Origin: a virus
IMG/VR virus record: IMGVR_UViG_3300031217_000014
Coordinates: 1 to 25,868 of that record
Strand: one strand, 5' to 3'
Length of the DNA: 25,868 nucleotides
Shown piece by piece: positions 1 to 23,020 of the stretch. The notes under the pieces were generated by a model. That model was not told where the DNA came from, made no database searches, and saw only the letters and a list, made by a program, of their open reading frames with translations. The position numbers and the translations under genes are program-made. How positions within the stretch are numbered: position 1 is the stretch's first letter; each line of letters opens with the position of its first letter.

Positions 1-464
1 GAGATGGCGGAGGTGGTGGAGCTAATATGGTTCCTAAACTTGTAGATGTAGTTCCTAATACTACTTACACTATCACCATAGGCAATGGAGGAAGTAGTGG
101 TTCTAATGGTGGAGATACTACTTTTGGTTCTACTAATTGGTTTGGCGGTAGAGGAGGTAATTCTTCTGGAGCTGAGTCTAGAGGTGCAATAACTCAAGGT
201 ATCTACATATTTAGAGAAGGTGGTGGATATGGGGCAGATGAAGATGGTTCTCCAGGATATAATATGAATAATTATGTAGGTGGTACTAGTGGCGCAGAAG
301 CTGGTGGTGGAGGTGCTGGTGGTAGAGGTAATGGAGCAAATGGCAACCCTGCTGGTACTGGAGATAGTGCCGCTGCTAATACAGGAGCTGGAGGTGGAGG
401 GTCTTCATCAGGTTCTGGTGGACTTGGTGGGTCTGGTTATTTAGAATTAATATGGTTTGAGTAG
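1..464 (+). CDS. Glycine-rich tail/adhesin-like protein, C-terminal part (5' truncated)
   Basis: The reading frame is already open at the window edge (codons from position 3), so only the last ~154 residues are visible. The visible part is dominated by Gly, Ser and Asn runs (GNGG, GGRGG, GAGGGG) broken by short beta-type segments (TYTITIG, TTFGSTNWFGG). It ends in a hydrophobic strand, YLELIWFE. Glycine-rich domains of this style occur in phage receptor-binding adhesins, where polyglycine-II helices form the core; that link is inference from composition. The gene lies directly upstream of tail genes, and its domain order matches the protein at 4487-5395. It could instead be a minor virion decoration protein. 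No start or ribosome-binding site can be assessed. Confidence 0.7.
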   Translation, partial: DGGGGGANMVPKLVDVVPNTTYTITIGNGGSSGSNGGDTTFGSTNWFGGRGGNSSGAESRGAITQGIYIFREGGGYGADEDGSPGYNMNNYVGGTSGAEAGGGGAGGRGNGANGNPAGTGDSAAANTGAGGGGSSSGSGGLGGSGYLELIWFE

Positions 465-491
465 TTTAATAAGGGTAATATAGGAGATAAT

Positions 492-830
492 ATGAAAAAT
501 ATAGCATTTAGAAGAGCAAGAAACACACAAGCAAAAGGTAGGATGCACGATAAATTTATCGTAGAATATGCTGATACCTCACTATTTACTTACGGTTTCC
601 ACAAAAAGGAAGATGGTTGGGAATTTATGGCTGAAGATAAGTTTGAAAAAGAGCTTGAGAAGAATAACAAGTGGGTTGATGAATTTCAGAATAATGAAAA
701 GAAAGAGTTAGATAAGCAAAGAGCAAAAGCTTTAAAGAAGAGACCAGAATTACTTAAACAGAAAGAAGAACAAGAGAAGCTAATGAAAGAATTTGAAGAG
801 TTTAAAGCATGGAAAGCATCACAGAAGTAA
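492..830 (+). CDS. Small charged protein with C-terminal coiled coil
   Basis: 112 aa, start ATG preceded by GGAG six bases upstream. I do not recognise the family. The first ~60 residues look globular (KFIVEYADTSLFTYGFHKKEDGWEFMAEDKF). Residues ~65-112 are almost purely Lys/Glu-rich helix (ELDKQRAKALKKRPELLKQ and onward) that should form a coiled coil. It sits between a glycine-rich adhesin and the large tail protein, so a chaperone or small structural role in the tail tip is plausible but unproven. A TTAATAAGGGTAATAT element overlaps its leader (466-481). Confidence 0.75.
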   Translation: MKNIAFRRARNTQAKGRMHDKFIVEYADTSLFTYGFHKKEDGWEFMAEDKFEKELEKNNKWVDEFQNNEKKELDKQRAKALKKRPELLKQKEEQEKLMKEFEEFKAWKASQK

Positions 831-852
831 TTACAACTAGTTAGGAGATAAT

Positions 853-3762
853 GTGGCATTTACAACACATGAAGAATATATTGCATCAAATAAGAGTGAG
901 AAGATAATCCTAGGTCATATTCATGCCTCTAAGAGACTCTATAACTTCCTCTCTGACTCTGGCTTATTTGCTAGGGTAACTACTGAGTTTGTCAACAAAG
1001 TGTTCCTAGGGACTACTGAGCTTACGAGAGTGGTTAATACTGGTGCAGTTACAGATGCTACTAAGTTTTATTATGATGTAACTACGTCTAAATTATATTT
1101 GTATGAGTTTGACCAAGACAATGATGAGATTATAGTAGAATATAGGTTCTTTTTTAGCAATGTACCTATTAATCTAGCTTGGGATTTAGGTTCTGGAGCA
1201 GAAGTGGAATATGAACCTAGAATTGTTAAAGTTCCTAAGTTTAAATCCCAAATGAGTCAAGGTAAAAAAGGTATTAATCTAGTTGGTAAGGGTAACTTTC
1301 AAATAAACAACAATGATGGCAAGTATGATAGTGTGTATGATACTGTATTCTTTGAAAATAAAGATGCCAATATATATACATTTAACAGAGATTTAGCGGT
1401 TTCTGAAGCACAAATTATCTTTAGAGGTACTATTACAGGTAAGCATTTAGACACTAAAGCAATTGTGTTTACATTGAATGATAGTTTATATGCACTAGAT
1501 GAATTGGTCCCTACTGTTCAATACGGTACAGATGTTATAGATGAAGATTCAAATAACCATAAAAGGATTATATATGGACAGGCAGATAATTTGCAAGTCC
1601 AATCATTAGACAAATATGGTTCTGGAGGTATTGTTATTACTGGAACTTTTACTGGTATTACTGGGACAGATTACATTGTAGGTACTGGTACTAATTTTTT
1701 AAACGACTTATCTGATGGCGATGTACTTAAGTTTAGTGATTTTGAAGTAACAGTTAACCAAGTAAAGACGAATACCGTAATTAAGGTTAATGAATTAGAT
1801 AGAACATTTAACAATAGAGATGCTACGCTTATACCGGAGATACAATATAACAATAGAAATAGAGAGTTTCAAGTAGCTGGACATGCTATTAAAAAGAGTA
1901 CTACTACTATAGATACTATTATATCTAGAAATAGAATTATTTTGACTGATGTAACTGGTTTTAAAGCTGATGATATAATTGACTTTGATGGTGAAGAAAA
2001 GACCATTAGAAGAATAAGTGGCAACACAATGGTATTATCTACTAACTTTAACCTACCCCATAGTGCTGGTGATCCAGTGACTAAGAAGGAATTATTCAAC
2101 ATTAGATACGATAAAGATACTAACCTTATAGACTCTGCCGATGTAACAATAACAAACACTTCGGCAGGAACTACTTTTACAATAGGGTCAAATACAGAGA
2201 TTAACACTGCACCTACTGTTAGATTAGCTCAACCAATTAGATGGTTGGACGGATTTGCCGGTGCTTGGGTTGGTGTTCCTCATGTAGTTAATATAAACAT
2301 AGTTTCTGGACCAATGTACGAGAAATACTTCATTTTATATGATACTGAAGGAGAATCTACAGCCTATTGGTTTAAAGATACAGCTCCAGTTGAAGTAAGT
2401 GATTTTAAAGAGCCTAATCATGGTGCAGACAATAGCACACCTATTAGTTTAACTGTTAGTAATCCCGATACAAATACACTAGTTGAAGCTGTATTTGAAG
2501 CAATAGCTAGGACTCAAGATAATTATCAAGTCAGGTTCTTAGGGAGTAATGTTACAATTACATCAATTAATCCTGAACCTATTACTAATCCAAATGTAGG
2601 AACTACTTCTTTTGGAACTACTGTACTATATGCTGGCTCTGCTAATGATTATAAGATTGATTTGAAGGATATATTAAACCCCAGAGATTACGTAGTTGGA
2701 CCTGATGGTTTTAGCTACGAGATACTACAGGTATATGAAAAATCACTTACACTAAGAACTAACTTTGGTGGACCATTTGATGCGACAATAGGGCTTTCTT
2801 ATAAAAATATTGAGTATATTAATGACGAAACAGTGGTATATCTTGATTGCTTTGGTAAGACAAAGGATGGAGAACCTACTGGAGAGTTGATAGAGACAAG
2901 TCCAGAAGTTGTAAAAGACATTATAGATAGTGTAGGGTTGGGTCAATTTGTAGATACCGCCTCTTTTATAGATGCATCAATTAGAGCACCACAAGTAATG
3001 TCATTAGTTATCCCGGAAAAACTAGCTTCTCAGCCAGACTCAGCAAAAGAGGTAGTTAATAAGATAAATAAGACGATATTAGGTTCTTTATATGTAAATC
3101 CAAGTCTTGACTTGGGATATGATATACTTGATTCTGAGGTTCCTATTGACACTTTAAGGTCAATTACTGAATCGGATTTAATATCTTGGAAGGTAAAAGC
3201 AGACAGTTTTGATTTAACAAAGACAAGTATAGCTAGATATAAGTTTATTGATTGGAATCCTACTAAAAAGTCAGAAGATACTAGTGAAGTTTCATACACA
3301 TCTAACTTTGTTGAGAAGTATATCGGTAATAAGAATACTAAACAGTTAGACTTTTACTTGTATAATCAAGTAGATGCACAGGAAATGGTTGAGAGAGAGA
3401 CATTTGTTAACTCAGTGTCTAACTCAACTATAAAAATTAAAGGTAAGCTTAATTTGTCTAAATTCCAACTAGGTGAAAGGGTGTTGTTAGATCTAGATAG
3501 ATTATATGTAGCCTTAGGATCAAGTAGCAACAGTAAGAGAGTGGGTATTGTAACTTCACTTGAAAATACTGGTGAGTCAGTTCAATTACAAATAGAGGAT
3601 ATTGGAGCTGTATATACAAGAGCATCAAGAATAACCAACGAAACAGCTAATGACTATGTAGATGCTTCGGGTGAAGAAAGAGTTACAAACTCATATATAG
3701 TAGATGAGAACGAAATAATTGGTACTGATGAAGATACCTTTTCAACAAACTTAATAGGATAG
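853..3762 (+). CDS. Large tail protein, putative tail tip/baseplate hub
   Basis: 969 aa and the largest complete gene here. The start is GTG at 853 with AGGAG at 843-847; an ATG at 851 opens only a short out-of-frame peptide. The chain is rich in beta-strand patterns and lacks signal peptide or membrane segments. The N-terminal ~230 residues (FRGTITGKHLDTKAIVFTLND and surroundings) resemble a hub or tail-tip domain in general character. Residues ~250-450 contain repeated small beta domains (GTGTNFLNDLSDGDVLKF, ITGFKADDIIDFDGEEK-like), as in tail proteins with inserted carbohydrate-binding or OB-like modules. The C-terminal ~250 residues (ESDLISWKVKADSFDLTKTSIARYKFIDW, then LSKFQLGERVLLDLDRL) fit a baseplate/tail-tip upper domain. 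The assignment rests on size, fold character and position after the tail genes; no catalytic motif was seen. Confidence 0.6.
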   Translation: MAFTTHEEYIASNKSEKIILGHIHASKRLYNFLSDSGLFARVTTEFVNKVFLGTTELTRVVNTGAVTDATKFYYDVTTSKLYLYEFDQDNDEIIVEYRFFFSNVPINLAWDLGSGAEVEYEPRIVKVPKFKSQMSQGKKGINLVGKGNFQINNNDGKYDSVYDTVFFENKDANIYTFNRDLAVSEAQIIFRGTITGKHLDTKAIVFTLNDSLYALDELVPTVQYGTDVIDEDSNNHKRIIYGQADNLQVQSLDKYGSGGIVITGTFTGITGTDYIVGTGTNFLNDLSDGDVLKFSDFEVTVNQVKTNTVIKVNELDRTFNNRDATLIPEIQYNNRNREFQVAGHAIKKSTTTIDTIISRNRIILTDVTGFKADDIIDFDGEEKTIRRISGNTMVLSTNFNLPHSAGDPVTKKELFNIRYDKDTNLIDSADVTITNTSAGTTFTIGSNTEINTAPTVRLAQPIRWLDGFAGAWVGVPHVVNINIVSGPMYEKYFILYDTEGESTAYWFKDTAPVEVSDFKEPNHGADNSTPISLTVSNPDTNTLVEAVFEAIARTQDNYQVRFLGSNVTITSINPEPITNPNVGTTSFGTTVLYAGSANDYKIDLKDILNPRDYVVGPDGFSYEILQVYEKSLTLRTNFGGPFDATIGLSYKNIEYINDETVVYLDCFGKTKDGEPTGELIETSPEVVKDIIDSVGLGQFVDTASFIDASIRAPQVMSLVIPEKLASQPDSAKEVVNKINKTILGSLYVNPSLDLGYDILDSEVPIDTLRSITESDLISWKVKADSFDLTKTSIARYKFIDWNPTKKSEDTSEVSYTSNFVEKYIGNKNTKQLDFYLYNQVDAQEMVERETFVNSVSNSTIKIKGKLNLSKFQLGERVLLDLDRLYVALGSSSNSKRVGIVTSLENTGESVQLQIEDIGAVYTRASRITNETANDYVDASGEERVTNSYIVDENEIIGTDEDTFSTNLIG

Positions 3763-3771
3763 GAGAATTAT

Positions 3772-4305
3772 ATGGCGTATGTTACAATTCCAACTTCGGT
3801 AATAGAAGTAGGTAAGGCAATTAAAAAGAGTTTATTCACTCTAATAAAGGATAACTTTGACGATCATGAAACCAGAATTGATGGTCTAGAGGCAGGAGCT
3901 AATAAGGTAGAGATATTTAACTTTGAGGTTATGGGGTTTATTAATAACTACACCGCAGCTGAGTTAGTACAAATTGGTACATTTAGAGCACCCTCTGACG
4001 TTACAGTAACAGAGATTAAACTTACTTTAATGAATGGTACGTCATCTGCTGTATCTAGCTCTAGTGGTTCTTTAACTATTGACATTCAAAAATCTAGTGA
4101 TAATGGAGCTACTTGGAACACAATTCTAGCTTCTGAGCCAGAAATTGCAGATGGAGTAAGTGCTTCAGGTTCTGTATCAGCTTTAGTATCATTTATAACT
4201 GATGGAGAAGACGTAGTTACTGATGATATTTTAAGGGTAAATGTAACATCTAAGAAAGATACACAGGGATCATTCCTAATAACAGTATATGGAGATGTAG
4301 CATAA
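3772..4305 (+). CDS. Fibre-like structural protein (N-terminal helix plus beta domain)
   Basis: 177 aa, AGGAG upstream of ATG. The first ~40 residues (SVIEVGKAIKKSLFTLIKDNFDDHETRIDGLEAGANK) form a heptad-like amphipathic helix, typical of the short trimerising stalk that attaches phage fibres. The remainder is a Ser/Thr-rich beta-sandwich-like domain (SLTIDIQKSSDNGATWNTIL and later strands, ending SFLITVYGDVA). It directly follows the large tail protein and overlaps the next gene by one base (TAATG), so it is probably a minor tail or baseplate fibre. Family not recognised. Confidence 0.7.
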   Translation: MAYVTIPTSVIEVGKAIKKSLFTLIKDNFDDHETRIDGLEAGANKVEIFNFEVMGFINNYTAAELVQIGTFRAPSDVTVTEIKLTLMNGTSSAVSSSSGSLTIDIQKSSDNGATWNTILASEPEIADGVSASGSVSALVSFITDGEDVVTDDILRVNVTSKKDTQGSFLITVYGDVA

Positions 4306-4487
4306 TGGAATTACTAGCATTTTTAGCATTAACACATGGTATTTTGATCTATTTTATAGTAGATGGAACTAGGAAAAGTAATGCCAAAACAAAGAGAATT
4401 AATAAGATAGTATATAAGTTCACTAAAGATATGTCTAAAGAAGAGATAACTCAATGGTGGAAAGAATTTAATCAAGGAGATAAGTAA
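4305..4487 (+). CDS. Small single-pass membrane protein
   Basis: 60 aa. Start ATG overlaps the previous stop (ATAATG) with GGAG upstream at 4291. Residues ~2-20 (ELLAFLALTHGILIYFIVDG) form one hydrophobic segment. A basic stretch (RKSNAKTKRINKIVYK) follows and then a charged tail, predicting N-out/C-in or a signal anchor. It also overlaps the following adhesin-like gene by one base. A lysis-accessory role is possible, but one TM and small size are not diagnostic; unknown function. Confidence 0.65.
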   Translation: MELLAFLALTHGILIYFIVDGTRKSNAKTKRINKIVYKFTKDMSKEEITQWWKEFNQGDK

Positions 4488-5395
4488 TGTCAGGCAATTT
4501 TTATTTACCACAGAAAGCAGACAAAGAAGTACAATATTCAATACCCTCAACGGGAACATATACTTGGACAGTGCCAGAAGCAGCTGGAGATACTGCTGGT
4601 GCAGCGGTTGAATTAACTATGCAAGTATGGTCAGCTGGTGGTGGAGCTGGTGGTACTCATGGGGCTTCTTCTTCAGGCGGTGGAGGTGGAGGTAAGTTTG
4701 TTATAGGTAGATATACATTTACTCCCGGACAAATTCTTACTTTTGTTGTACCTTCAGGTGGAGCTGGCGGAAGTAAGAATGCTGACGGTACATTAGCTGG
4801 TGCTGGTGGTGATGGTGGTGATGGTGGTGAAGCAAGTATAAAAATAGGTACAACCAATATAGTGTCTGTCTTAGGTGGCGGAGGATCAGGTGGTTCTCTT
4901 AGTAATTCAACTGGAGTTCCTTCACCATCAGTAGGCTCAGGGGCAACAAGTCATTCAAACCATGCATCTTTTACAGTAGATAAGGCTGTTAATGGAGCAA
5001 ATGGTGGTATAGGTGGTGGTGGTGGAAACAGTGCTGGTTCTAATGGTGGTTCAGTTTCAAATGCTGGTGCTGGTGGAGGTGGTGGATCTGGTGGTGCTGG
5101 TGGTACATCAAGCGAATCAGGTTCAAGTCAAGCTTTAGGTGGCGGTGGAGCTGGTGCTTCTGCTAATGCAAATGGTGGACGAGGTGGTAATGCTACTGGT
5201 GTTGGTGATGGTGAAGTTACTACAGGTGGTGGTGGTGGAGCTGGATACTACGTAGGTGGTACTGGTCAAGATAGAACATCTTCTACAGGAAATGCTACTT
5301 GGTATGGATCTAATGGTGGAGATGGCGGAGGCGGTTATATTTCATTTTCTTTTACTACTACTAATGGTGGAAGTGGCGGAAGTGCTCCTTCATAA
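4487..5395 (+). CDS. Glycine-rich adhesin-like tail protein
   Basis: 302 aa. The N-terminal ~50 residues are beta-type (YSIPSTGTYTWTVPEAAGDT, ELTMQVWSAGGGAGG). Next come a second beta hairpin (FTPGQILTFVVPSGGAGG) and ~180 residues of GGGG/GGNGG-type repeats, with a C-terminal strand GYISFSFTT before a short Gly/Ser tail. The opening pattern STGTYTWTVP matches glycine-rich phage tail proteins of the type proposed to present polyglycine-II bundles; that is family-level inference. It is the last + strand gene of the distal tail block and is followed by a strong hairpin. The repeats are GGT/GGA-rich and may be prone to length change by slippage. Best guess: receptor-binding or host-range adhesin. 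Confidence 0.75.
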   Translation: MSGNFYLPQKADKEVQYSIPSTGTYTWTVPEAAGDTAGAAVELTMQVWSAGGGAGGTHGASSSGGGGGGKFVIGRYTFTPGQILTFVVPSGGAGGSKNADGTLAGAGGDGGDGGEASIKIGTTNIVSVLGGGGSGGSLSNSTGVPSPSVGSGATSHSNHASFTVDKAVNGANGGIGGGGGNSAGSNGGSVSNAGAGGGGGSGGAGGTSSESGSSQALGGGGAGASANANGGRGGNATGVGDGEVTTGGGGGAGYYVGGTGQDRTSSTGNATWYGSNGGDGGGGYISFSFTTTNGGSGGSAPS

Positions 5396-5438: not shown

Positions 5439-5471
5439 GAGAGGGTTACAATCATCTCCTGTAACCCTCTC
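5439..5471. terminator. Hairpin between convergent operons
   Basis: A perfect 12-bp inverted repeat (GAGAGGGTTACA / TGTAACCCTCTC) with a 9-nt loop lies between the + strand tail block and the - strand operon. Only weak T-rich tails flank it (CTTCTTAATCTTTT on +). It probably serves as a bidirectional terminator; on the - strand it lies just past the stop of the 5478-5669 gene. Confidence 0.8.
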
Positions 5472-6570: not shown

Positions 6571-7289
6571 TACCTTAATTCTCCTATCCAATCGCCATTC
6601 TTATCAAGAACCATTGGAATTAACATTGGTTGTCCTTCTATAATGATACCACATCCTATAATAGGTCTTCCCATATTTGTCTTATTGTATTCAAATGCCA
6701 ATGCCTTATCATCTATTAAACATCCTACAGTCATATTCCATAACAAAGCGTTAGGAGAAGAACAATAATTGATGTTAAAGTCATTGTGAAAGTGACCTTG
6801 TACAAAGTTCATACCTATCTCTTTAGTTACTTGTATACCATTCTTCTTTAATCCATGGTGAAAATACACTTGTGAACCATCAGAACATTTAAGTTTGATA
6901 TGGTGTTGCCATTCCCAGCCCTCAGGAGCCTCTAGAATGTCTCCATACTCTCTCAAATACTTTCTAGCTATACCGTGATGTTTTCCTTTTCTGTAGTGCA
7001 TAGAGCCATGATTAGAGTCTACTAGAGATACTTTAGGAAATAATTTATATATAGGCTTTAAGAACTCAATAGCTATTTCCAACTCATCTCCAGCACTTGG
7101 TAAATCTGGGTCTGAATCATGAAAACTCATTGAGTGATTATCAACCTCATCTCCAATACATATAACCTTATCTATATCATATGATTCTTTAATAGCTGTT
7201 AGGAAAGCTAATGTATCCTTATGATGGTATGGTATATGCATATCACTAATTACTAATATACAACTATTCTCTACTTTTTTCTTACTCAT
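6570..7289 (-). CDS. Calcineurin-like metallophosphoesterase
   Basis: 239 aa. The metal-binding motifs of the superfamily appear in order: D16-x-H18 (SDMHIP), G46-D47-x-x-D50 (GDEVDNH), S92-N93-H94 (SNHGS, replacing the usual GNHD/E), H144-H145-G (FHHG) and G165-H166-F-H168 (GHFHND). These are the dinuclear metal ligands, so an active phosphodiesterase or phosphatase is expected. The usual acidic residue after NH is Gly, a variant also common in phage members as far as I recall. Substrate unknown; nucleic-acid or cyclic-nucleotide cleavage are both possible. The start overlaps the upstream stop (TATAATG) with AAAGG seven bases before it. Confidence 0.88.
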   Translation of the reverse strand: MSKKKVENSCILVISDMHIPYHHKDTLAFLTAIKESYDIDKVICIGDEVDNHSMSFHDSDPDLPSAGDELEIAIEFLKPIYKLFPKVSLVDSNHGSMHYRKGKHHGIARKYLREYGDILEAPEGWEWQHHIKLKCSDGSQVYFHHGLKKNGIQVTKEIGMNFVQGHFHNDFNINYCSSPNALLWNMTVGCLIDDKALAFEYNKTNMGRPIIGCGIIIEGQPMLIPMVLDKNGDWIGELR

Positions 7290-7693
7290 TATACTACCTT
7301 TGTTGCGTACATTTGTACTTTTTTATTGAATTTACCCATTGTAATACCAACTACTTCTATTAAATTTGATTGCTCAAGCTCTGTTAGTCTACCTGAGATA
7401 CTTCCGGTTGATATTTCAGTACCATGTATTTGTTGAAATAAGTCTACAATCTCATGTCTAGTTATTCCTTTATATTCTTTTATAATTTCAAATACTTGCT
7501 TTCTTCTACCTGATAACTCACTTTCTGTTAAAGAATTATACGCACCAGCAGAAGTATTAAACCTTGCATCTCTATAAGCTTCTTTTGTAATAGATCGTTT
7601 TAAATCTACTTTCTTCTTCTCAAACATTGTATTAGCTAATACTTTGGCTCTTTCTCTAATTAATTTCTCTAATTGTAATCTTGTTATTTCCAT
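7289..7693 (-). CDS. Winged-helix DNA-binding protein
   Basis: 134 aa. Residues ~60-134 read as a winged helix: SGRRKQVFEIIKEYKGITRHEIVDLF (helices 1-2), STGSISGRLTELEQSNLIEVVG (recognition helix) and the wing KKVQMYATKVV. The N-terminal ~55 residues are a basic helix (LEKLIRERAKVLANTMFEKKKVDLKR) that could dimerise or bind DNA. It overlaps its neighbours by one base on each side. It is a likely transcription regulator of early genes; its target cannot be read from sequence. Confidence 0.7.
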   Translation of the reverse strand: MEITRLQLEKLIRERAKVLANTMFEKKKVDLKRSITKEAYRDARFNTSAGAYNSLTESELSGRRKQVFEIIKEYKGITRHEIVDLFQQIHGTEISTGSISGRLTELEQSNLIEVVGITMGKFNKKVQMYATKVV

Positions 7694-8135: not shown

Positions 8136-8149
8136 TCTCATTTCCTTTG

Positions 8150-8203
8150 TTAGATTGGCTTTATTGCCTTTCTTGTTATGATGTAAAGATTAAGTCTCCA
8201 CAT
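8150..8203 (-). CDS. Possible 17-aa leader peptide
   Basis: ATG at 8203-8201 is preceded by CAGGAAGAC and encodes MWRLNLYIITRKAIKPI. The stop (ATCTAACAAAGG) lies just before the Shine-Dalgarno site of the 8135 gene. The same stop-plus-SD arrangement follows the 29-aa ORF at 10937-11026, which makes a coupled leader peptide plausible. Too short for coding statistics. Confidence 0.3.
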   Translation of the reverse strand: MWRLNLYIITRKAIKPI

Positions 8204-8507
8204 GTCTTCCTGTTATATAGTTGTTAAATTTAACTGATTTATTTTCATTTATTTTCAATTAAATTCATTTTTAGAATCATTTCAATAACTTACGTTTTAC
8301 TTGTTATTTACTTTATTTCTTTTGTTCCTATACTATATAGATTATGATTCTTATAAGTTTATTATAGTATTTTTAGGGTTAAAATTAGAGTTTTCTGGAG
8401 TTAATTTCAATATTTGAACAATATTAAGTACTTAGAAATGAAACTTTTTTGACTTTTTATTAGAGTTTTATGATACTATTGTAGTAAATCTTCCCATTAT
8501 ATAAAAT
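8204..8507 (-). promoter_or_regulatory. AT-rich intergenic region, probable promoter of the 8.1-5.5 kb operon
   Basis: About 300 bp without a credible gene, bounded by a terminator on one side and the first gene of the next - strand operon on the other. So it must hold that operon's promoter. Visible elements are the 10-bp palindrome TAAGTACTTA (8428-8437), an AATATT-tgaac-AATATT inverted repeat beside it, and a TACTATAAT-like -10 on the - strand. No good -35 pairs with the latter, so no exact promoter is assigned. Confidence 0.45.
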
Positions 8508-8534
8508 TTGAAAAGAAAAGCGACCGAAGCCGCT
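8508..8534 (-). terminator. Intrinsic terminator after the primase gene
   Basis: On the - strand the stem AGCGGC / GTCGCT closes a TTCG tetraloop (8534-8519) and is followed by TTTCTTTTC. A C(UUCG)G loop plus a U-rich tail is a classic rho-independent terminator. It lies five bases past the primase stop codon and ends the replication operon. Confidence 0.85.
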
Positions 8535-8538
8535 CATT

Positions 8539-10922: not shown

Positions 10923-10936
10923 CTCTAATCCTTTTG

Positions 10937-11026
10937 TTAGATGTTCTTATTAAGAGCTTCTTTCATTAACTTGCTAAAATTAATGGTTGACTCATTTTCA
11001 TCTTCTTGTACTAACTTTAGTTTCAT
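10937..11026 (-). CDS. 29-aa small ORF (possible leader peptide)
   Basis: ATG at 11026-11024 is preceded by AAAAGGGTTTAA, a good Shine-Dalgarno site, and encodes 29 residues beginning MKLKLVQEDENE and ending ALNKNI. The stop lies 14 bases before the next start. Acidic then basic helix; no family. It may be a true microprotein or a translational leader for the CsrA-like gene. Confidence 0.5.
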   Translation of the reverse strand: MKLKLVQEDENESTINFSKLMKEALNKNI

Positions 11027-11154
11027 TTAAACCCTTTTGCTTTGTTTAAACAGCATTATCGCTGCTATAATATAAAGATTAGCATTCTATGTTGTATATT
11101 AACTACTTTTTAAACCTTATTTTAAATATACTTTCATATATACAACAATAACAG

Positions 11155-11307: not shown

Positions 11308-11441
11308 TATAGATTCTCATAAGCGAATGCATCTACAATTTCGCCAGTTTTTGATACACTTACATTATATAAGTATTCTTGAAGACATTCTAATTCAACA
11401 CTAACTACTATAGATACTAAATCTTCTTGAAGACATTGCAT
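11307..11441 (-). CDS. 44-aa hypothetical protein
   Basis: MQCLQEDLVSIVVSVELECL and onward, ending AFAYENL. The frame is open ~18 codons further upstream without a better start, and no SD precedes the chosen ATG, so the start is uncertain. Its stop overlaps the next start. It contains an internal near-repeat, QCLQED / ECLQEY, encoded by a 14-base direct repeat (AATGTCTTCAAGAA). Unknown function. Confidence 0.35.
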   Translation of the reverse strand: MQCLQEDLVSIVVSVELECLQEYLYNVSVSKTGEIVDAFAYENL

Positions 11442-11908
11442 ATATTCTAATTGGTGTAAACGCTTAATGTTTAGGCTATATCTAAAGAAAAGTTAATATA
11501 TCTCGCTTATTCCCATGATTACAGTAACTTAACTCTATACCCAGCTATACCAAACCATTCCTAACGTATCCCAGAACGAGATTACAGCTACTTAGAAAGG
11601 TCTGTACTAATAAAAACAATAAGTTAGAAGTATACCCAAAATCTATACCAGCTTTTGTCTCAGTTCAGGGATATATAATATACATGGATACTAATATATT
11701 TACTTAATGAAAACTCCGAGGTAAAGTTTTATTGGGTATAGAAATATTTATTTAATAATTTTAAGTAGTTAGAAAAGGTCTTTTTACAGTATTTTAAGGA
11801 TTAGTTCTTTAATTTCAACCACTTAACTCTATACCCAAAAAAGTTAGGTATATGCCAGGTATATTGGGTATAGAACTGTAATTATAAGTACTTAGCTTGG
11901 GTATATAA
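11442..11908. promoter_or_regulatory. Repeat-rich control region, candidate replication origin
   Basis: About 465 bp with no credible gene. It holds six exact TATACCC/GGGTATA sites: 11536-11542, 11631-11637, 11734-11740, 11830-11836, 11866-11872 and 11899-11905. Several one-base variants also occur. A 16-bp direct repeat ACTTAACTCTATACCC is present at 11527-11542 and 11821-11836. ACTTA-type boxes include AGCTACTTAGAAAGGTCT (11585-) and TAAGTACTTA (11885-11894). It lies just upstream of the helicase/primase operon. Clustered short repeats in AT-rich DNA beside replication genes suggest an iteron-type origin and/or operator array for the early promoter. This is inference; no unwinding element was proven. 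Confidence 0.55.
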
Positions 11909-11910
11909 AT

Positions 11911-12091: not shown

Positions 12092-12556
12092 TTACTCTCC
12101 ATCTTCTATTTTCTTATAAGCATCATTTATCTCTTGAACACTCATTAACTTAGGTAGATACTCTTTCTTTACAATAGTCCTATTATTCCATCTCTTAGAC
12201 TCAGCCCTTATATCAGTATGAATAAACACATCATATACTCCTAGACTCTTCTCACTAAACATCTGGTCTATAATCTCTTCTAGAATAGGTAATGAGTCAC
12301 ACTGTAGATCAGCTGCCCAACCTTTAACATGACTACTATTTAATACTCCACCTACATTCTCATTATGATTTGGACACCTGTAAGCACTTGTAATCTTGAT
12401 AGGGTGACCATATAAGTCCCTAAGCTCCTGTAAATACGATACTAAGTCATCATGAACGATTTGTTCTTCACATTGTCCACATTTACACATCAACTCACTT
12501 AGTTTAAAATTCTTACTTAATTGCTTGTCTGATTCACTTCTTTTGTATATTGCCAT
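12092..12556 (-). CDS. Peptidase M15-type endolysin (D,D-/L,D-carboxypeptidase fold)
   Basis: 154 aa from ATG at 12556, six bases from AGGAG; the ATG at 12562 abuts the SD. The M15A/VanY-like zinc site is visible: S75-H76-x-x-G79-x-A-A-D83 (SSHVKGWAAD), with the second His in FIHTDIR (H113). Preceding these are KLSEL, ITSAYRCPNHNENVGG and LQELRD, the family's usual N-terminal signature. It should cleave peptide cross-links or stem peptides in peptidoglycan during lysis or entry. A Cys cluster (MCKCGQC) is typical of this subgroup. There is no signal peptide, so it would need a holin; none is adjacent. Confidence 0.88.
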   Translation of the reverse strand: MAIYKRSESDKQLSKNFKLSELMCKCGQCEEQIVHDDLVSYLQELRDLYGHPIKITSAYRCPNHNENVGGVLNSSHVKGWAADLQCDSLPILEEIIDQMFSEKSLGVYDVFIHTDIRAESKRWNNRTIVKKEYLPKLMSVQEINDAYKKIEDGE

Positions 12557-12573
12557 AATCATCTCCTATATGT

Positions 12574-12607
12574 ACTATATCTTATTAATCTAGCTACTTA
12601 CGTAAGA
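12574..12607 (-). promoter_or_regulatory. Putative phage promoter for the lysin operon
   Basis: Read on the - strand: TCTTAC, 13 nt, TTAATAAGATATAGT. This matches the spacing of the + strand late-promoter motif. The predicted start falls near 12567, giving a leader of only about ten bases before ATG. Its upstream box shares the palindrome CTTACGTAAG with the divergent + promoter. Confidence 0.45.
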
Positions 12608-12629
12608 TACCATTTAATAAGGGTTTATA
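12596..12629 (+). promoter_or_regulatory. Putative phage late promoter (terminase/portal block)
   Basis: AGCTACTTAC, 12 nt, TTAATAAGGG, then TTTATA. Two further copies of this bipartite motif occur upstream of the scaffold/capsid and major tail genes. TTTATA is the -10 candidate. Confidence 0.55.
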
Positions 12630-12695
12630 AGGCGACAACTGGTAAAACTCATAGGTTGATTAATTAACAAAAGACCAGAGCCTATAAATATATAA

Positions 12696-12726
12696 TTACA
12701 GCTACTTACAGTGTATTGGCTATAAT
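12696..12726 (+). promoter_or_regulatory. Second candidate promoter upstream of the endonuclease/terminase block
   Basis: A perfect TATAAT (12721-12726) follows TTACAGCTACTTACAG, so an ACTTAC box sits 18 bases before it. Spacing differs from the bipartite motif above, and no good -35 at 17 bp was found. The expected start is near 12733. Confidence 0.45.
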
Positions 12727-12738
12727 TTAACGACAAAA

Positions 12739-12751
12739 GCATTAGTAATGC
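12739..12751 (+). other. 5' leader inverted repeat
   Basis: GCATTAGTAATGC, a perfect inverted repeat, begins a few bases after the expected transcription start and ends two bases before the AGGA of the GIY-YIG gene. It could protect the mRNA 5' end or bind a regulator. Confidence 0.4.
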
Positions 12752-12762
12752 ATAGGAAAGCA

Positions 12763-13185
12763 ATGAAGACATGGTATGTATATGCACATTATAATTTAAA
12801 CACCAACGAACTATTCTATATAGGAGTAGGTACTGGCAAAAGAGCCTATAACAAGAATAGAAACCAACTATGGAAGAATATAGTGGTTAAACATGGTTAT
12901 AGAGTAGAAATGCTAAGAACAGGCTTTACTAATCGTGATGAAGCTGTCAAAGTAGAAATAAGACTACAACAACTAAACAAACCCAGAGCATGTTTTCAAT
13001 ATGGAGATAGACTTAATAGTATACAATCCCAAGAAACTAAAGATAAGAGAGCTAAAGCCTTAACTGGTAAGAAACGCTCAAAAGAGACTAAACAATTATT
13101 ATCTAGAGCGTTAAAGACAGGTAGAACTGCTGGTAAGTACGAAGACGGTACTAAAGTGAGATGGAGCTACCATGTCAATTCATAA
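12763..13185 (+). CDS. GIY-YIG homing endonuclease
   Basis: 140 aa from ATG at 12763, five bases after AGGA; an in-frame ATG at 12748 has no SD. The nuclease core shows Y5-V-Y7, Y19-I-G21 (FYIGVGTGKR), R27 and a candidate catalytic Glu at 65 (KVEIR), the standard GIY-YIG order. A basic middle (KDKRAKALTGKKRSKETKQLLSRALK) looks like a NUMOD3-type DNA-contact repeat, and the C-terminus ends AGKYEDGTKVRWSY. The same C-terminal signature occurs in the proteins at 18189 and 21056. It should nick or cut DNA to spread itself. It sits just before the terminase genes, a common landing zone, and overlaps the small terminase start by 14 bases. Confidence 0.8.
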   Translation: MKTWYVYAHYNLNTNELFYIGVGTGKRAYNKNRNQLWKNIVVKHGYRVEMLRTGFTNRDEAVKVEIRLQQLNKPRACFQYGDRLNSIQSQETKDKRAKALTGKKRSKETKQLLSRALKTGRTAGKYEDGTKVRWSYHVNS

Positions 13186-13603
13186 GAAGATAAATGAGCG
13201 TGTAACCAAAGCACGACTAGACCAAATCATCCTAAGAGTTATTGATTTAATGGGTAAAAACCACACTACAATGCAAATATGTGGTATTTTAAGACCCGAA
13301 TTGAATAAATCAGAGACTCAAATCAAGAGGTATGTCTCTAAAGCCACAGAAGTGCTTAAGAAGGACTTTGAACGTGATGCCCAGATAAAGAGACTCGAAA
13401 TGGAACAGTCTCTTAGAAAGGATCTAGTGGATGCTTATGTCATATTCAACTCATTAGCCCCAGATGACCGTCAAAAGTCAGTATGGTACAAACTTATCCT
13501 AGAAACTAAAGACAGGTTAGCTAAATTTACACCAGAAGATATAGACAAGAATGAAGAACAGACTATATCAATAACATATAAAGAAGTGGGTAAAGATGAC
13601 TAA
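13172..13603 (+). CDS. Terminase small subunit (putative)
   Basis: 143 aa, GGAG seven bases before ATG. Residues ~15-60 (ARLDQIILRVIDLMGKNHTTMQICGILRPELNKSETQIKRYVSKA) read as a helix-turn-helix of the packaging-recognition type. A coiled helical oligomerisation region follows (KDFERDAQIKRLEMEQSLRKDL), and then a short beta tail (TISITYKEVGK) that would contact the large subunit. The function is assigned from the HTH, the size and the overlap (8 bases) with the large terminase gene. It should recognise the genome start site, possibly within or near this gene. Confidence 0.78.
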   Translation: MSIHKKINERVTKARLDQIILRVIDLMGKNHTTMQICGILRPELNKSETQIKRYVSKATEVLKKDFERDAQIKRLEMEQSLRKDLVDAYVIFNSLAPDDRQKSVWYKLILETKDRLAKFTPEDIDKNEEQTISITYKEVGKDD

Positions 13604-14819
13604 GAAGTTAGAATTACTACCTACACAACTAGAACTATTAGAATCAGAGTCTAAAATAGCACTATATCTGGCAGGTATCGGTAATGGTAAGACATTTACA
13701 CTGGCACACTATGTTATACAGATGGTAGCTAAGTATCCGAAAGCTAAAGGATTAATAGTAGCTAATACTATATCACAGCTTAAGAACGCTACAATGACAG
13801 GACTTACTGAGGAATTAGAGGCACTTAACATACCTTTTACAATGGTAATGGGTGGAGCATCTAAGACAATAACAATACTAGGAACAACAATATATCTATA
13901 CAGCCTTGAACGCTACGAGAATATAAGGGGTATTCAAGTCGGATGGATAGCAGGGGATGAGGTAGCATTTGCCAAGAGAGAGGCTATTGATGTTATTATG
14001 GGTCGTTTAAGAGATGGTAATGGACCATTGACTACTCGATTCTTCTCTTCTCCTAACTCATTCAATTGGACTTACGACATGTTCAATGGCTTTGATGGCG
14101 ATAACAAGACAGATATGTTCCACTTAATCAAAGGTAAGACTAAAGATAATGTATTCCTACCTGATGGCTACTATGAATCACTTGTCGAACTATATGGTGG
14201 ATTAGACTCTCCATTAGCTAAACAAGAGTTAATGGGTGAATTTGTCAATCTAACAGAAGGTGCAGTATATTGGGCATTCGATAGAGACAAACATGTACAG
14301 AAGTGTGAACTAAACAATAATTATATGGTATACATAGGACAAGATTATAATATAGCTAACATGGCTAACTGCTATGTACAGTATATAAATGGCATATTCT
14401 ATGTTAGTCAAGAGACAATCCTATCAGGTAACTCATCTAATACATTTGATGCCACAGATAAGATACTAAAAGACCTAGTTAAGTCACATAAGACAGTGAT
14501 ACCAGATAGCACAGGTAAGGCTAGAAAGACCAGTTCTACACAATCAGACCATCAGATTATGAGAGCAGCAGGTCTAAATGTAATGGAAACACATAACCCA
14601 CTCATAAGAGACCGTCAGAACACCGTAAACGTGGCTCTAAAGAAGGGTAAGCTAGTTATTGACCCATCATGCAAACAAATCATTAAAGAGCTAGAGAGCC
14701 TAGCACAGCGTGATAAAGAGGGTGAAGTATCCCATGTAGCAGTTGCACTAGGGTATGTACTATTTAAACTAGACCCATTAAGAAGAGCTACCAAAGCAAG
14801 CAAACAGATACAACTATAA
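13596..14819 (+). CDS. terL: Terminase large subunit (packaging ATPase-nuclease)
   Basis: 407 aa. Walker A is AGIGNGKT (26-33). Walker B is VGWIAGDE (115-122), with the Asp-Glu pair at 121-122. RFFSSPNSFNW is the C-motif/coupling region. In the nuclease half, YIGQDYNIANM carries the first catalytic Asp, TVIPDSTGK the second acidic site, and VSHVAVALGYVLFKLDP the C-terminal one, as in RNase H-like terminase nucleases. It pumps DNA into the prohead at the portal and cuts the concatemer. Length is at the short end of the usual range. It is followed by a short gap holding TTAATAAGG before the portal gene. Confidence 0.92.
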   Translation: MTKKLELLPTQLELLESESKIALYLAGIGNGKTFTLAHYVIQMVAKYPKAKGLIVANTISQLKNATMTGLTEELEALNIPFTMVMGGASKTITILGTTIYLYSLERYENIRGIQVGWIAGDEVAFAKREAIDVIMGRLRDGNGPLTTRFFSSPNSFNWTYDMFNGFDGDNKTDMFHLIKGKTKDNVFLPDGYYESLVELYGGLDSPLAKQELMGEFVNLTEGAVYWAFDRDKHVQKCELNNNYMVYIGQDYNIANMANCYVQYINGIFYVSQETILSGNSSNTFDATDKILKDLVKSHKTVIPDSTGKARKTSSTQSDHQIMRAAGLNVMETHNPLIRDRQNTVNVALKKGKLVIDPSCKQIIKELESLAQRDKEGEVSHVAVALGYVLFKLDPLRRATKASKQIQL

Positions 14820-17518: not shown

Positions 17519-17536
17519 CTTAACGTAATTTTAAGT

Positions 17537-17571
17537 ACTTACATAAAACATCCTATTAATAAGGGTATTAT
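17537..17571 (+). promoter_or_regulatory. Putative phage late promoter (scaffold/capsid block)
   Basis: AAGTACTTAC, 13 nt, TTAATAAGGG, then TATTATAG. The upstream box contains the perfect palindrome TAAGTACTTA (17532-17541). A start near 17578 is expected, just before the 5' hairpin GGAATAGTAATTCC at 17581-17594. Confidence 0.65.
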
Positions 17572-17580
17572 AGAACCAAT

Positions 17581-17613: not shown

Positions 17614-18189
17614 ATGAGTGAACAAGACAAAGACATTAAGATTGAAAACGAAGCTAAAGAAGAGTTTGTAAGTAAGAAGGCTTATCAGGATGTATCCACA
17701 GATATGCATAAATACAAAACAGACCTAAAAGAAACTAAAGCATTGTTAAATCAGATTCAAGCTGAACAAGAAGCCGTAAAGAAAGAGGCTTTAGCTGAAC
17801 AAGGGAGATGGGAAGAGCTTTATAACTCAAACCAATCAGAACTTGACCAGATTAAGCAAGAACGAGACAGCGACAAGAACAAGTTTGTTGACTACCATAA
17901 GAAGAACAGCGTGTTACAGAAGATTGGTGGTTTTAAGCGTGATGACTATAACAAGTTTATCGACGTTGAAAATGTTAGTATGAACGATGATGGTTCACTT
18001 AATGAAGACAGTTTAATGAATGAAGTAGACAGAATAAAGCAGGAATACCCTGAGTTACTTAAGTCTGCATCTAATACTAAGCTACCTAACGACGCTCCAC
18101 AAGGGAATGAAGTTGGTCCTCAAGACGCAAATAAGTTACAAGGTCATGAGAAAGTACAGTATTTAAAAAGTTTGATTAAGAAGAAATAA
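17614..18189 (+). CDS. Capsid scaffolding protein (putative)
   Basis: 191 aa, highly charged (Lys/Glu) and mostly coiled coil from ~15 to 110 (DMHKYKTDLKETKALLNQIQ...). A GGFKRDDYNKFIDVENVSM segment follows, and then a basic C-terminal helix (GHEKVQYLKSLIKKK) of the kind that contacts coat protein. It directly precedes the major capsid gene, separated by one small gene, as expected of a scaffold. The ribosome-binding site is only a weak AAGG. It is expected to be lost or degraded during maturation; no protease gene is seen here. Good positional call, family not proven. Confidence 0.72.
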   Translation: MSEQDKDIKIENEAKEEFVSKKAYQDVSTDMHKYKTDLKETKALLNQIQAEQEAVKKEALAEQGRWEELYNSNQSELDQIKQERDSDKNKFVDYHKKNSVLQKIGGFKRDDYNKFIDVENVSMNDDGSLNEDSLMNEVDRIKQEYPELLKSASNTKLPNDAPQGNEVGPQDANKLQGHEKVQYLKSLIKKK

Positions 18190-18506
18190 TGAAAGAATAC
18201 TATGTTTATGCCCACTTTACTGGAGACTCACTTAATAAGGTAGTACTAAATGAGACTAGATCTAAGATGAGAGAGTCACGAAGAGGACATACTCCTAATC
18301 TAGGTAAAGTTAAAACTGTAGAAGCAAAGTTGAAAGTAAGTAGGTCAATCATTAATTGTAGAGGGGAAGTTTTTAGTTCTCTAAAACAAGCAAGTAAGGT
18401 GGTTGGTATAGGCAACACAACAATATGTGAGTGTCTAAAAGGAAGGTCTAATTCAGCAGGTAAATACTCTGATGGGACTAGAATAAAATGGAAATATATT
18501 AGTTAA
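18189..18506 (+). CDS. Shrunken homing-endonuclease remnant (NUMOD domain only)
   Basis: 105 aa starting as TAATG on the scaffold stop. The first residues, MKEYYVYAHFTG, copy the start of the GIY-YIG gene (MKTWYVYAHYN at 12763), but the YIG/Arg/Glu nuclease core is absent. It continues as GHTPNLGKVKTVEAKLKVSRS (NUMOD3-like), INCRGEVFSSLKQASKVVG (NUMOD1/IENR1-like) and the tail AGKYSDGTRIKWKY. So it looks like an internal deletion product that kept the DNA-binding modules. It may be inert or may act as a DNA-binding regulator. An internal CTTTAC/TTAATAAGGTAGTAC element (18215-18246) resembles the late promoter. Confidence 0.7.
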   Translation: MKEYYVYAHFTGDSLNKVVLNETRSKMRESRRGHTPNLGKVKTVEAKLKVSRSIINCRGEVFSSLKQASKVVGIGNTTICECLKGRSNSAGKYSDGTRIKWKYIS

Positions 18507-18550
18507 TAATAATTAATAACAGCTCTTAAATGAGCAAAAGGAGTATAGCA

Positions 18551-21055: not shown

Positions 21056-21256
21056 ATGGCAAAAACTCATTACATAGGGAAGGGACACTGGAAACAGGTT
21101 ATCAATTGTAAGGGGCAGGTTTTTATGTCTCTAATTGAAGCATGTAAAAAATTTAATATAAAAAATACTTCTAGTATATGTAATAATATATCAGGGAGAA
21201 CTAGTATAGCTGGAAAGTACCCAGATGGTACTGGTATAACATGGAGATATATCTAA
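21056..21256 (+). CDS. Homing-endonuclease DNA-binding remnant (NUMOD1/IENR1)
   Basis: 66 aa; weak SD (GAGG). It begins AKTHYIGKGHWKQ and then INCKGQVFMSLIEACKKFNI, NISGRTSIAGKY and PDGTGITWRYI. This is the same C-terminal module as in the 18189-18506 protein (INCRGEVFSSLKQASKVVG and AGKYSDGTRIKWKY). The nuclease part is absent. It sits between the adaptor and tail-terminator genes, and its stop overlaps the next start (CTAATGG). Probably a decayed or captured mobile DNA-binding domain. Confidence 0.65.
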   Translation: MAKTHYIGKGHWKQVINCKGQVFMSLIEACKKFNIKNTSSICNNISGRTSIAGKYPDGTGITWRYI

Positions 21257-21708
21257 TGGGATTAATAGCAAATATAAAAACAGGGATTGAGGCTAGATTG
21301 GCAATAAGTATACCTTCCTACACAAGGGCTGCATACCAATCAGATATAAGTATGAATAAATTCAAAGGGAATAGTGCTCTTTTTGCAGTACATCCTGTAT
21401 CAGCTACAGAAGTAGACGGATTAATAGGAGCATATACACTAGACCACCAATTTAAGGTCACTTTAACCAACTCATATAATGCTGGAGCTAAGTCTCAGAT
21501 AGGTGATTCACTTAAATCTAGCCGCATAACTGAGATAAATGACGACATATTAGCTACTTACAGAGACCTAGTTATTAATAAGGGTAATATAGATGCATCA
21601 ATACTGCTAATAAGCGAAATGAGTATCGAAGATGCTGAATTTATTGATGAAGAGAAGGTCATAACAGTAACATTCACATTTAACATAAAGTATAAAGTTA
21701 ACAAGTAA
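21256..21708 (+). CDS. Tail terminator (tail-completion) protein, putative
   Basis: 150 aa from ATG at 21256, with GGAG nine bases upstream; the ATG at 21241 has no SD. The pattern (MGLIANIKTGIEARLAISI, then alternating beta strands such as HQFKVTLTNSYNA, DASILLISEMSIED, ITVTFTFNIKYKVNK) fits the small alpha-beta fold of tail terminator proteins. The gene lies just before the major tail protein, as in other siphoviruses. A late-promoter-like element lies inside it (21556-21590). Confidence 0.65.
   Translation: MGLIANIKTGIEARLAISIPSYTRAAYQSDISMNKFKGNSALFAVHPVSATEVDGLIGAYTLDHQFKVTLTNSYNAGAKSQIGDSLKSSRITEINDDILATYRDLVINKGNIDASILLISEMSIEDAEFIDEEKVITVTFTFNIKYKVNK
21556..21590 (+). promoter_or_regulatory. 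Intragenic putative late promoter for the tail-tube gene
   Basis: GCTACTTAC, 13 nt, TTAATAAGGG, then TAATATAG. Same elements and spacing as the scaffold/capsid promoter. The predicted start lies near 21597, about 130 bases before the major tail ATG. Confidence 0.6.
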
Positions 21709-21729: not shown

Positions 21730-22884
21730 ATGGCTTACACAATTAAGAAGAACGTTAAGGTAGCCGTAAAGGGTGAATCAACTGAAGGGACATACGTTGC
21801 TCCTGCAAGTGGTGCTGACTTTGTTCAGGCACAAGAAGACGGAATCGAAATGAACGGTTCAAAAGACACACTAGAACTTAACGTAATCGGTACTGGACTA
21901 TCAAAAGTAGCTCCAAGAGTAGGTCTAGAATCTGCATCTGGTTCATTAGGTGTTTATATGAAAGCTGGTTCAGCAGCTGACGAAGAGCCTGAATATGGAA
22001 TCATGTTAGAATCATTATGTGGAGCAAAAAGAAGTGCAGCAGCACAGGGAAGTGGCTCAAATCATACAACTACTCTAATCAATGTATCAAATACGTCTGA
22101 ATATGCTGTAGGAGACATTGTAGTAGTTAAACAAGGTAGTGATTACCATACATCACCAATCGTATCATTAGTGGAAGACACTAGTATTACACTATTAATC
22201 GCAGCAGCAGCACCATTCGATGACTCAGTAGTTGTAGAAGCTTTTAATACTTATGTACCAGCTGATGAGGCTCATCCTTCATACTCTGTATCTAAATGGG
22301 TAGAAGATGAAGTACTAGAACAATCAGTAGGATGTAAAACAACTAGTTTAGCTGTTGAATCATTCAGTACTGGTCAAGTAGCTAGTCTTAAGATGGGATT
22401 TGAAGGTTCTAATTATACAAGAAGCCTTACATCAATTCCTTACGAACCAACATACGATACATCTGAGACACCAATTATCTTAGACGCTTGTATACACCAA
22501 GATGGTAACATCATCCAAGTAAATGACTTTACACTTAACGTAGAGAATACTCTTGGTTGGATTAAAGATACATGTAACGGTAAATCAGCTTCTAGAATCA
22601 CTTCAAGAATGGTTTCTGGAACAATTAATCCTTATAAAGAAGACGATAGTATTGATAACTACACGAAATTTGATGCAAACACATCATTCTCACTAGTTAT
22701 CACTGCACATAACCCTAATGCTACAGCAGGTGAATATAGTGAATCAGTTTCATTCTATATGCCAATATGTACAATCACTGAATTAGGTGAAGGTGACATT
22801 GACGGAGTACTTACAGAAGCTATTAGCTTTAGTGCCAACTCAGTAGATGGAACAATCAAAGAGTTATATATATCAATTTCTTAA
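21730..22884 (+). CDS. Major tail protein (tail tube)
   Basis: 384 aa; AAGGAG seven bases before ATG. Starts MAYTIKKNVKVAVKGESTEG and then TYVAPASGADFVQAQEDGIEM, a layout common to siphovirus tail-tube subunits. Beta-rich through SSLAVESFSTGQVASLKMGF-like and SRMVSGTINPYKEDDS, ending FSANSVDGTIKELYISIS. Length is that of tube proteins with an extra domain, possibly at ~100-180 (TTTLINVSNTSEYAVGDIVVVKQGSDY). Position between terminator-type and chaperone genes, plus its own upstream promoter and downstream terminator, support high expression. Confidence 0.82.
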   Translation: MAYTIKKNVKVAVKGESTEGTYVAPASGADFVQAQEDGIEMNGSKDTLELNVIGTGLSKVAPRVGLESASGSLGVYMKAGSAADEEPEYGIMLESLCGAKRSAAAQGSGSNHTTTLINVSNTSEYAVGDIVVVKQGSDYHTSPIVSLVEDTSITLLIAAAAPFDDSVVVEAFNTYVPADEAHPSYSVSKWVEDEVLEQSVGCKTTSLAVESFSTGQVASLKMGFEGSNYTRSLTSIPYEPTYDTSETPIILDACIHQDGNIIQVNDFTLNVENTLGWIKDTCNGKSASRITSRMVSGTINPYKEDDSIDNYTKFDANTSFSLVITAHNPNATAGEYSESVSFYMPICTITELGEGDIDGVLTEAISFSANSVDGTIKELYISIS

Positions 22885-22970: not shown

Positions 22971-22987
22971 TTTAATAAGGTACTATA
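22971..22987 (+). promoter_or_regulatory. Half-motif promoter before tail chaperones
   Basis: TTTAATAAGG followed by TACTATAG, immediately after the terminator. It matches the downstream half of the late-promoter motif but lacks an ACTTAC box at the expected place, so it may be weaker or differently controlled. Confidence 0.45.
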
Positions 22988-23020
22988 GACAAACAATCAT
23001 ATGACAGGAGATATGCAATT

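Follow-up and report, generated by a model that had tools for sequence, protein, structure and literature searches.

How might a small phage turn on lysin and packaging genes that point away from each other, and could a single protein on a single DNA site serve both directions? The question arises in a noncoding gap of a small uncultivated phage; the window analysed here is its entire IMG/VR record (25,868 bases). The gap (12563-12747, 185 bp) is flanked by the lysin arm on the - strand and the packaging arm on the + strand. It is the sole divergent gap in the window, and both gene arms begin there.

The divergent gap and its flanking genes

The - arm starts with the lysin gene (12092-12562, -), which encodes a Peptidase M15_3 protein (PF08291, E 4.8e-19) that also matches a PHROG endolysin (phrog_894, E 8e-35). 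Its ribosome site AGGAG (12563-12567, -; direct reading) abuts the listed ATG 12562. At 6 nt from AGGAG, ATG 12556 is the more probable start. The first ORF of the + arm encodes a homing endonuclease (12748-13185; phrog_314, E 5e-10), and its N-terminal residues suggest the GIY-YIG type. It is followed by a probable small terminase subunit (13172-13603, +), named for its position before terL only, with no match in family searches, and by the large terminase subunit (13596-14819, +; PF03237, E 3e-15; phrog_2, E 1.5e-38).

The listed genes run on the - strand from 12562 to 5478 and on the + strand from 12748 to the window end, continuing through 1-5395. GC skew changes its sign near 5-6 kb and 12-13 kb, i.e. 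at both arm junctions. Where the arms converge, a terminator-like hairpin of 13 pairs is found (5439-5471; listed for the - strand only). The near-identical contig L020 joins the window end to its start via about 3.07 kb of tail genes, yielding a map of about 29 kb. Given this bridge and the gene directions, the entire mapped genome diverges from the gap. Neither the window nor the 3-kb tail segment with which L020 bridges its ends shows a phage RNA polymerase gene, a negative that leaves room for a strain-specific insertion elsewhere. As first gene of the - arm, lysin needs a promoter, yet the gap contains no sigma-70 promoter (-35/-10 at 16-18 nt) with at least 9 of 12 matches on either strand, the best reaching 8/12.

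On the + strand, ACTTAC (12596-12601) is followed by 12 nt and the promoter-like core TTAATAAGGGTTTATAAG (12614-12631). On the - strand, TCTTAC (12607-12602; both boxes by direct reading) is followed by 13 nt (12601-12589) and the promoter-like core TTAATAAGATATAGT (12588-12574), which ends 11 nt before ATG 12562. The overlap of the + CTTAC with the - CTTAC creates the perfect palindrome CTTACGTAAG at 12597-12606. An earlier note on this DNA had described the two boxes, the palindrome and the - core with its 13-nt spacing, leaving the + half unspelled; its strings and coordinates are all exact. If TAATAA is read as -10, the box is located near -30, like that of T4 middle promoters (PMC2988021); if TANTAT is read as -10, it is located near -40. 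Between this site and the homing endonuclease gene lies a second box copy, AGCTACTTAC, followed by TATAAT at 12721-12726 (whole element 12700-12726, +); it is the top-scoring box of the window under a model whose training set included this site.

By itself, the palindrome was rejected as a signal: perfect 10-bp palindromes number 26 against a shuffle mean of 36, so that CTTACGTAAG alone is at chance level. The arrangement of boxes and cores is different. In 4,000 dinucleotide shuffles, and in tests that are post hoc with the motif taken from the same sequence, CTTAC-N12..14-TTAATAAG is found three times on the + strand (12597, 17538, 21557) vs a shuffle mean of 0.0065 and once on the - strand (12606) vs 0.00625, and the back-to-back pair CTTATTAA-N15..40-TTAATAAG once vs 0.00375; of 20,000 shuffles of the 185-bp gap alone, equally post hoc, 1 gives the octamer pair and 4 give the - composite.

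A repeated box-and-core family

The + unit belongs to a phage-specific repeated element composed of the box A[AG][CG]TACTTA and then the core TTAATAAGGGTANTATAG. The box occupies eight noncoding loci vs one coding locus (21552) in a window with a noncoding share of 8% (binomial 1.4e-8), and a k-mer excess is observed, too. In the gap, it reads AGCTACTTA(C) at 12592-12601 (+). Full box-and-core copies are present at two other late operons. The first, AAGTACTTAC-N13-TTAATAAGGGTATTATAG (17533-17573, +), lies in the intergenic stretch ahead of ORF 17614 (scaffold-like by position) and the major capsid gene at 18530. The second, AGCTACTTAC-N13-TTAATAAGGGTAATATAG (21552-21592, +), is located inside ORF 21241-21708 and upstream of 21730-22884, which by position encodes the major tail protein. 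It contains the only coding box copy, which is at family spacing from TTAATAAGGGTAATATAG; the structural gene that follows starts about 170 nt downstream. At all three late sites with a full copy, box and TTAATAAG are a fixed 12-13 nt apart. CTTACGTAAG was sought at both sister sites and is absent; they have the same spacing without the inverted half.

Cores also occur without a box, as TTAATAAGGGTAATATAG at 466-483 (+), where it overlaps the ribosome site of ORF 492, and as TTTAATAAGGTACTATAG at 22971-22988 (+) ahead of ORF 23021. The string TTAATAAGG has seven copies in the window, all on the + (structural-gene) strand; those at 466 and 14821 overlap ribosome sites and the one at 18232 lies within coding sequence. 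Sister contig L005 carries a variant of the core at 14235. A T7-like promoter reading of TTAATAAGGGTANTATAG, which resembles ...ACTATAG, was set aside because the nearly closed map has no polymerase gene and the TTAATAAGG-TANTATAG spacing varies by 1 nt.

Conversely, boxes without a core are found in the early region at 8.4, 11.15, 11.6 and 11.9 kb, so that the box in general may serve as operator or replication site. The AT-rich noncoding stretch 11308-11910 (603 bp) adjoins a DUF5906 primase-type gene and carries several TACTTA boxes as well as six copies of TATACCCA in both orientations (0 in coding sequence). It resembles an iteron-containing replication origin. A - strand promoter is predicted at 11909-11881 (TTTATA-17-TATAAT), and its spacer contains the box TAAGTACTTA at a typical operator position. 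Two further long AT-rich noncoding stretches of the early arm, 8142-8538 and 10923-11154, each have a TACTTA box within or beside them.

The two halves of the site

The halves were compared using models built without the 12.6-kb site, which ranked about 51,700 positions. The + core took rank 5 and the + box rank 15, so the + half is a member of the family. The - core took rank 1,184 and the TCTTAC half-box (12602-12607, -), although exact as a string, rank 3,237, a weak family match. The - half lacks GGGTANTATAG, and its family likeness is limited to the TTAATAAG octamer and the CTTAC pentamer at family spacing. This means that the palindromic box, which the earlier note had seen as shared, holds up in its + half, whereas TCTTAC goes unrecognised by the family model. 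The same applies to the - core, whose TTAATAAG fits the family while the rest fails. The box was also misplaced at the palindrome: the family box is AGCTACTTA (12592-12600), on the + strand only and with its centre about 6 bp to the left. A dyad between the two units is present and non-random in combination with both cores, yet its - half fails the family models. The wider claim that the region controls both directions is well supported by the unique divergent gap, the start of both arms in it and the match of the + half to a repeated family.

The low ranks of the - core and - box would be expected if the + unit alone were a family promoter, lysin were transcribed from an unrelated weak host-type promoter with TATAGT (12579-12574) as -10, and the - octamer and CTTAC were partly fortuitous. 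Moreover, TTAATAAG occurs twice on the - strand of the window, which is about the per-strand shuffle count. However, the - strand CTTAC-N12..14-TTAATAAG is expected only 0.006 times per window, its exact back-to-back placement is rarer still, and TATAGT has no acceptable -35 at 16-18 nt. We consider this explanation possible but unlikely.

A proposed divergent late promoter pair

The reading that we prefer, to which we give an even chance, is a divergent late promoter pair used by host RNA polymerase together with a phage activator. The gap would be the divergent control region of a siphovirus-like phage of about 29 kb. It would comprise two back-to-back box(CTTAC)-N12/13-TTAATAAG units, whose boxes overlap into CTTACGTAAG. 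The rightward unit, one of three full late-type promoter copies, would drive the packaging and head genes, and the leftward unit, a weaker version, would drive lysin. Host RNA polymerase is presumed because the mapped genome has no phage RNA polymerase gene; it would use TAATAAG, or TANTAT just after it, as -10. In place of the missing -35 contact, a phage activator would bind the box, and lysis and packaging would be turned on at the same late stage. From motif, spacing and gene layout we infer promoter function (on the - strand, too), late timing, the activator, the start sites and the action of one protein in both directions. By analogy with P2, it is plausible that a single bound protein would fire both ways. 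Against the reading stand the poor ranks of the - half and its lack of GGGTANTATAG, the boxes without a core and the cores without a box, the TTAATAAGG copies on ribosome sites or in coding sequence, and the absence of the motif from the diverged relative L023. The earlier note had suggested a winged-helix protein (7289-7693) as candidate regulator. A resemblance does exist, but it is sub-threshold (Pfam HTH_12, E 0.02, below the cut-off) and thus a weak sequence guess; the predicted structure is unusable (pLDDT 40.6), and neither a PDB sequence search nor a search of phage records gave a match.

A bolder version appears doubtful: a new activator family would recognize A[AG][CG]TACTTAC at 12-13 bp from TTAATAAGGGTANTATAG, fire lysis and packaging in opposite directions from one site, and act through the same box in the early region and near the origin. 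If the proposed pair itself is real, it would provide a compact, testable case of lysis timing tied to packaging via one DNA site, in a small phage from a group with almost no sequenced relatives. The promoter and box motif could be used to annotate transcription units in this phage group. The principle of the divergent switch itself is already known from P2.

Alternatively, the boxes across the noncoding DNA might be stoperator- or CI-like operators, bound by a repressor of the phage or by a protein that switches early to late expression, and the 12592 copy might shut off promoters on one or both sides instead of activating them. Boxes are found in early noncoding regions, too, the one at 11882-11897 lies inside the predicted - promoter, and palindromic box forms such as TAAGTACTTA would suit a dimer. 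The fixed 12-13 nt between box and TTAATAAG at three full late sites, however, suits an activator better; furthermore, the searched genes include no integrase, and no repressor beyond the weak winged-helix guess. An operator therefore seems improbable. It is very improbable that the dyad works through a structure of the RNA or DNA (as a hairpin, a processing site or a replication site) instead of as promoters: the - strand fold reaches -9.3 kcal/mol (z -1.74) and the TATACCCA repeats at 11.5-11.9 kb suggest a neighbouring origin, but the + strand folds no more stably than shuffled sequence (z 0.11), Rfam yields no match, and the inverted half is missing from the sister sites of the same spacing.

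Comparison with known systems

The divergent late promoter pair proposed here has its closest counterpart in P2. In this phage, P and Q are the terminase ATPase and the portal protein, and K is the lysin. PP controls PQ and PO controls ONMLKRS, and Ogr acts at such sites (PMC3931495). In the P2-like phage Smp131, the putative PP' and PO' sites coincide in a single 18-bp stretch, one on each strand (4398-4381 and 4381-4398; PMC3931495). Divergent late operons governed from one dyad activator site would be the common feature. In contrast to the P2 site, TGT-N12-ACA, the phage studied here has CTTAC/GTAAG with cores at 12-13 nt, and its opposite arm holds lysin only and not capsid genes. The TGT-N12-ACA dyad is absent from the site. 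Likewise, no Ogr-type CX2CX22CX4C protein was found in the window, a loosened search giving one match, antisense inside the tape-measure gene. The P2 Ogr system proper can thus be discounted.

At T4 middle promoters, a phage box 12 +/- 1 bp from the -10 replaces the -35, and host RNA polymerase is used (PMC2988021). The box located 12-13 nt from TTAATAAG is reminiscent of this design. However, the MotA box reads (a/t)(a/t)(a/t)TGCTTtA instead of CTTAC, and the -10 elements of T4 middle promoters are good matches to the sigma-70 consensus, while the -10 candidates here are not. Box and -10 thus place the site outside the MotA-promoter class, and family searches gave no match for MotA or AsiA. 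With no polymerase gene in the window or the bridging segment, the site also falls outside the class of T7-like single-subunit RNA polymerase promoters.

The portion of the Mu study cited here describes the C activator as turning on several late promoters including Plys, which have non-consensus -10 and -35 elements (PMC4461284). A single late activator for several late promoters, among them a lysis promoter, is what the proposed system would share; that same portion does not mention two Mu late promoters diverging from a single site (PMC4461284). Family searches yielded no protein resembling Mu C. Stoperators of Cluster A mycobacteriophages, as far as the cited part of their description goes, are many genome-wide copies of a short phage-specific site that bind the immunity repressor (PMC9283540). 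The box resembles them as a short phage-specific site in many copies across the genome; unlike them, it is coupled at three sites to a core at a fixed distance downstream, and neither a repressor nor a lysogeny gene could be identified here.

Relatives and conservation

Searches of IMG/VR with lysin and primase returned no related contig, and those with terminase and capsid returned only 99.9%-identical contigs. These are unsuitable for a conservation test because all of them start at or after 13013. No second record covering the gap site was found. A scan of IMG/VR for the divergent pattern gave 0 matches (own record possibly excluded). Scans for the core motif found the same phage and unrelated chance contigs (such as L010, L013, L016 and L022) and no other virus with multiple matches. 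The terminase search of GTDB genomes found none, and phage records showed remote protein similarity only and no match for the site DNA.

One diverged relative, L023, was found through its metallophosphoesterase (62% identity); its terminase, portal and scaffold-region proteins are 36%, 35% and 29% identical, respectively. Replication and packaging genes have the same divergent layout on either side of an AT-rich gap (about 3973-4331). No similar lysin and no matching core were found in the L023 record, and the box/core motif is absent. Since L023 keeps the layout without the motif or lysin, the divergent layout is old, and conservation of the box/core motif and the lysin placement finds no support in L023. 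Repeats of the TAGTATA type make up the L023 gap (3973-4331), together with two direct 34-nt copies that begin with CTCTCATACT (79% alike); this is a different control sequence in the equivalent position.

Mobile elements and strain differences

Two short ORFs (18189-18506 and 21056-21256) look like decayed remnants of homing endonucleases related to the one at 12748. The GIY-YIG-type gene 12748-13185 and both remnant-like ORFs are located beside head or tail genes. Tail-fibre-like genes differ among the near-identical strains (L005 14263-16111, L007 69-2220, L020 180-2208): the same 159-aa gene is followed either by 564-aa and then 469-aa ORFs or by a 466-aa ORF. These differences suggest an exchange of host-recognition modules.
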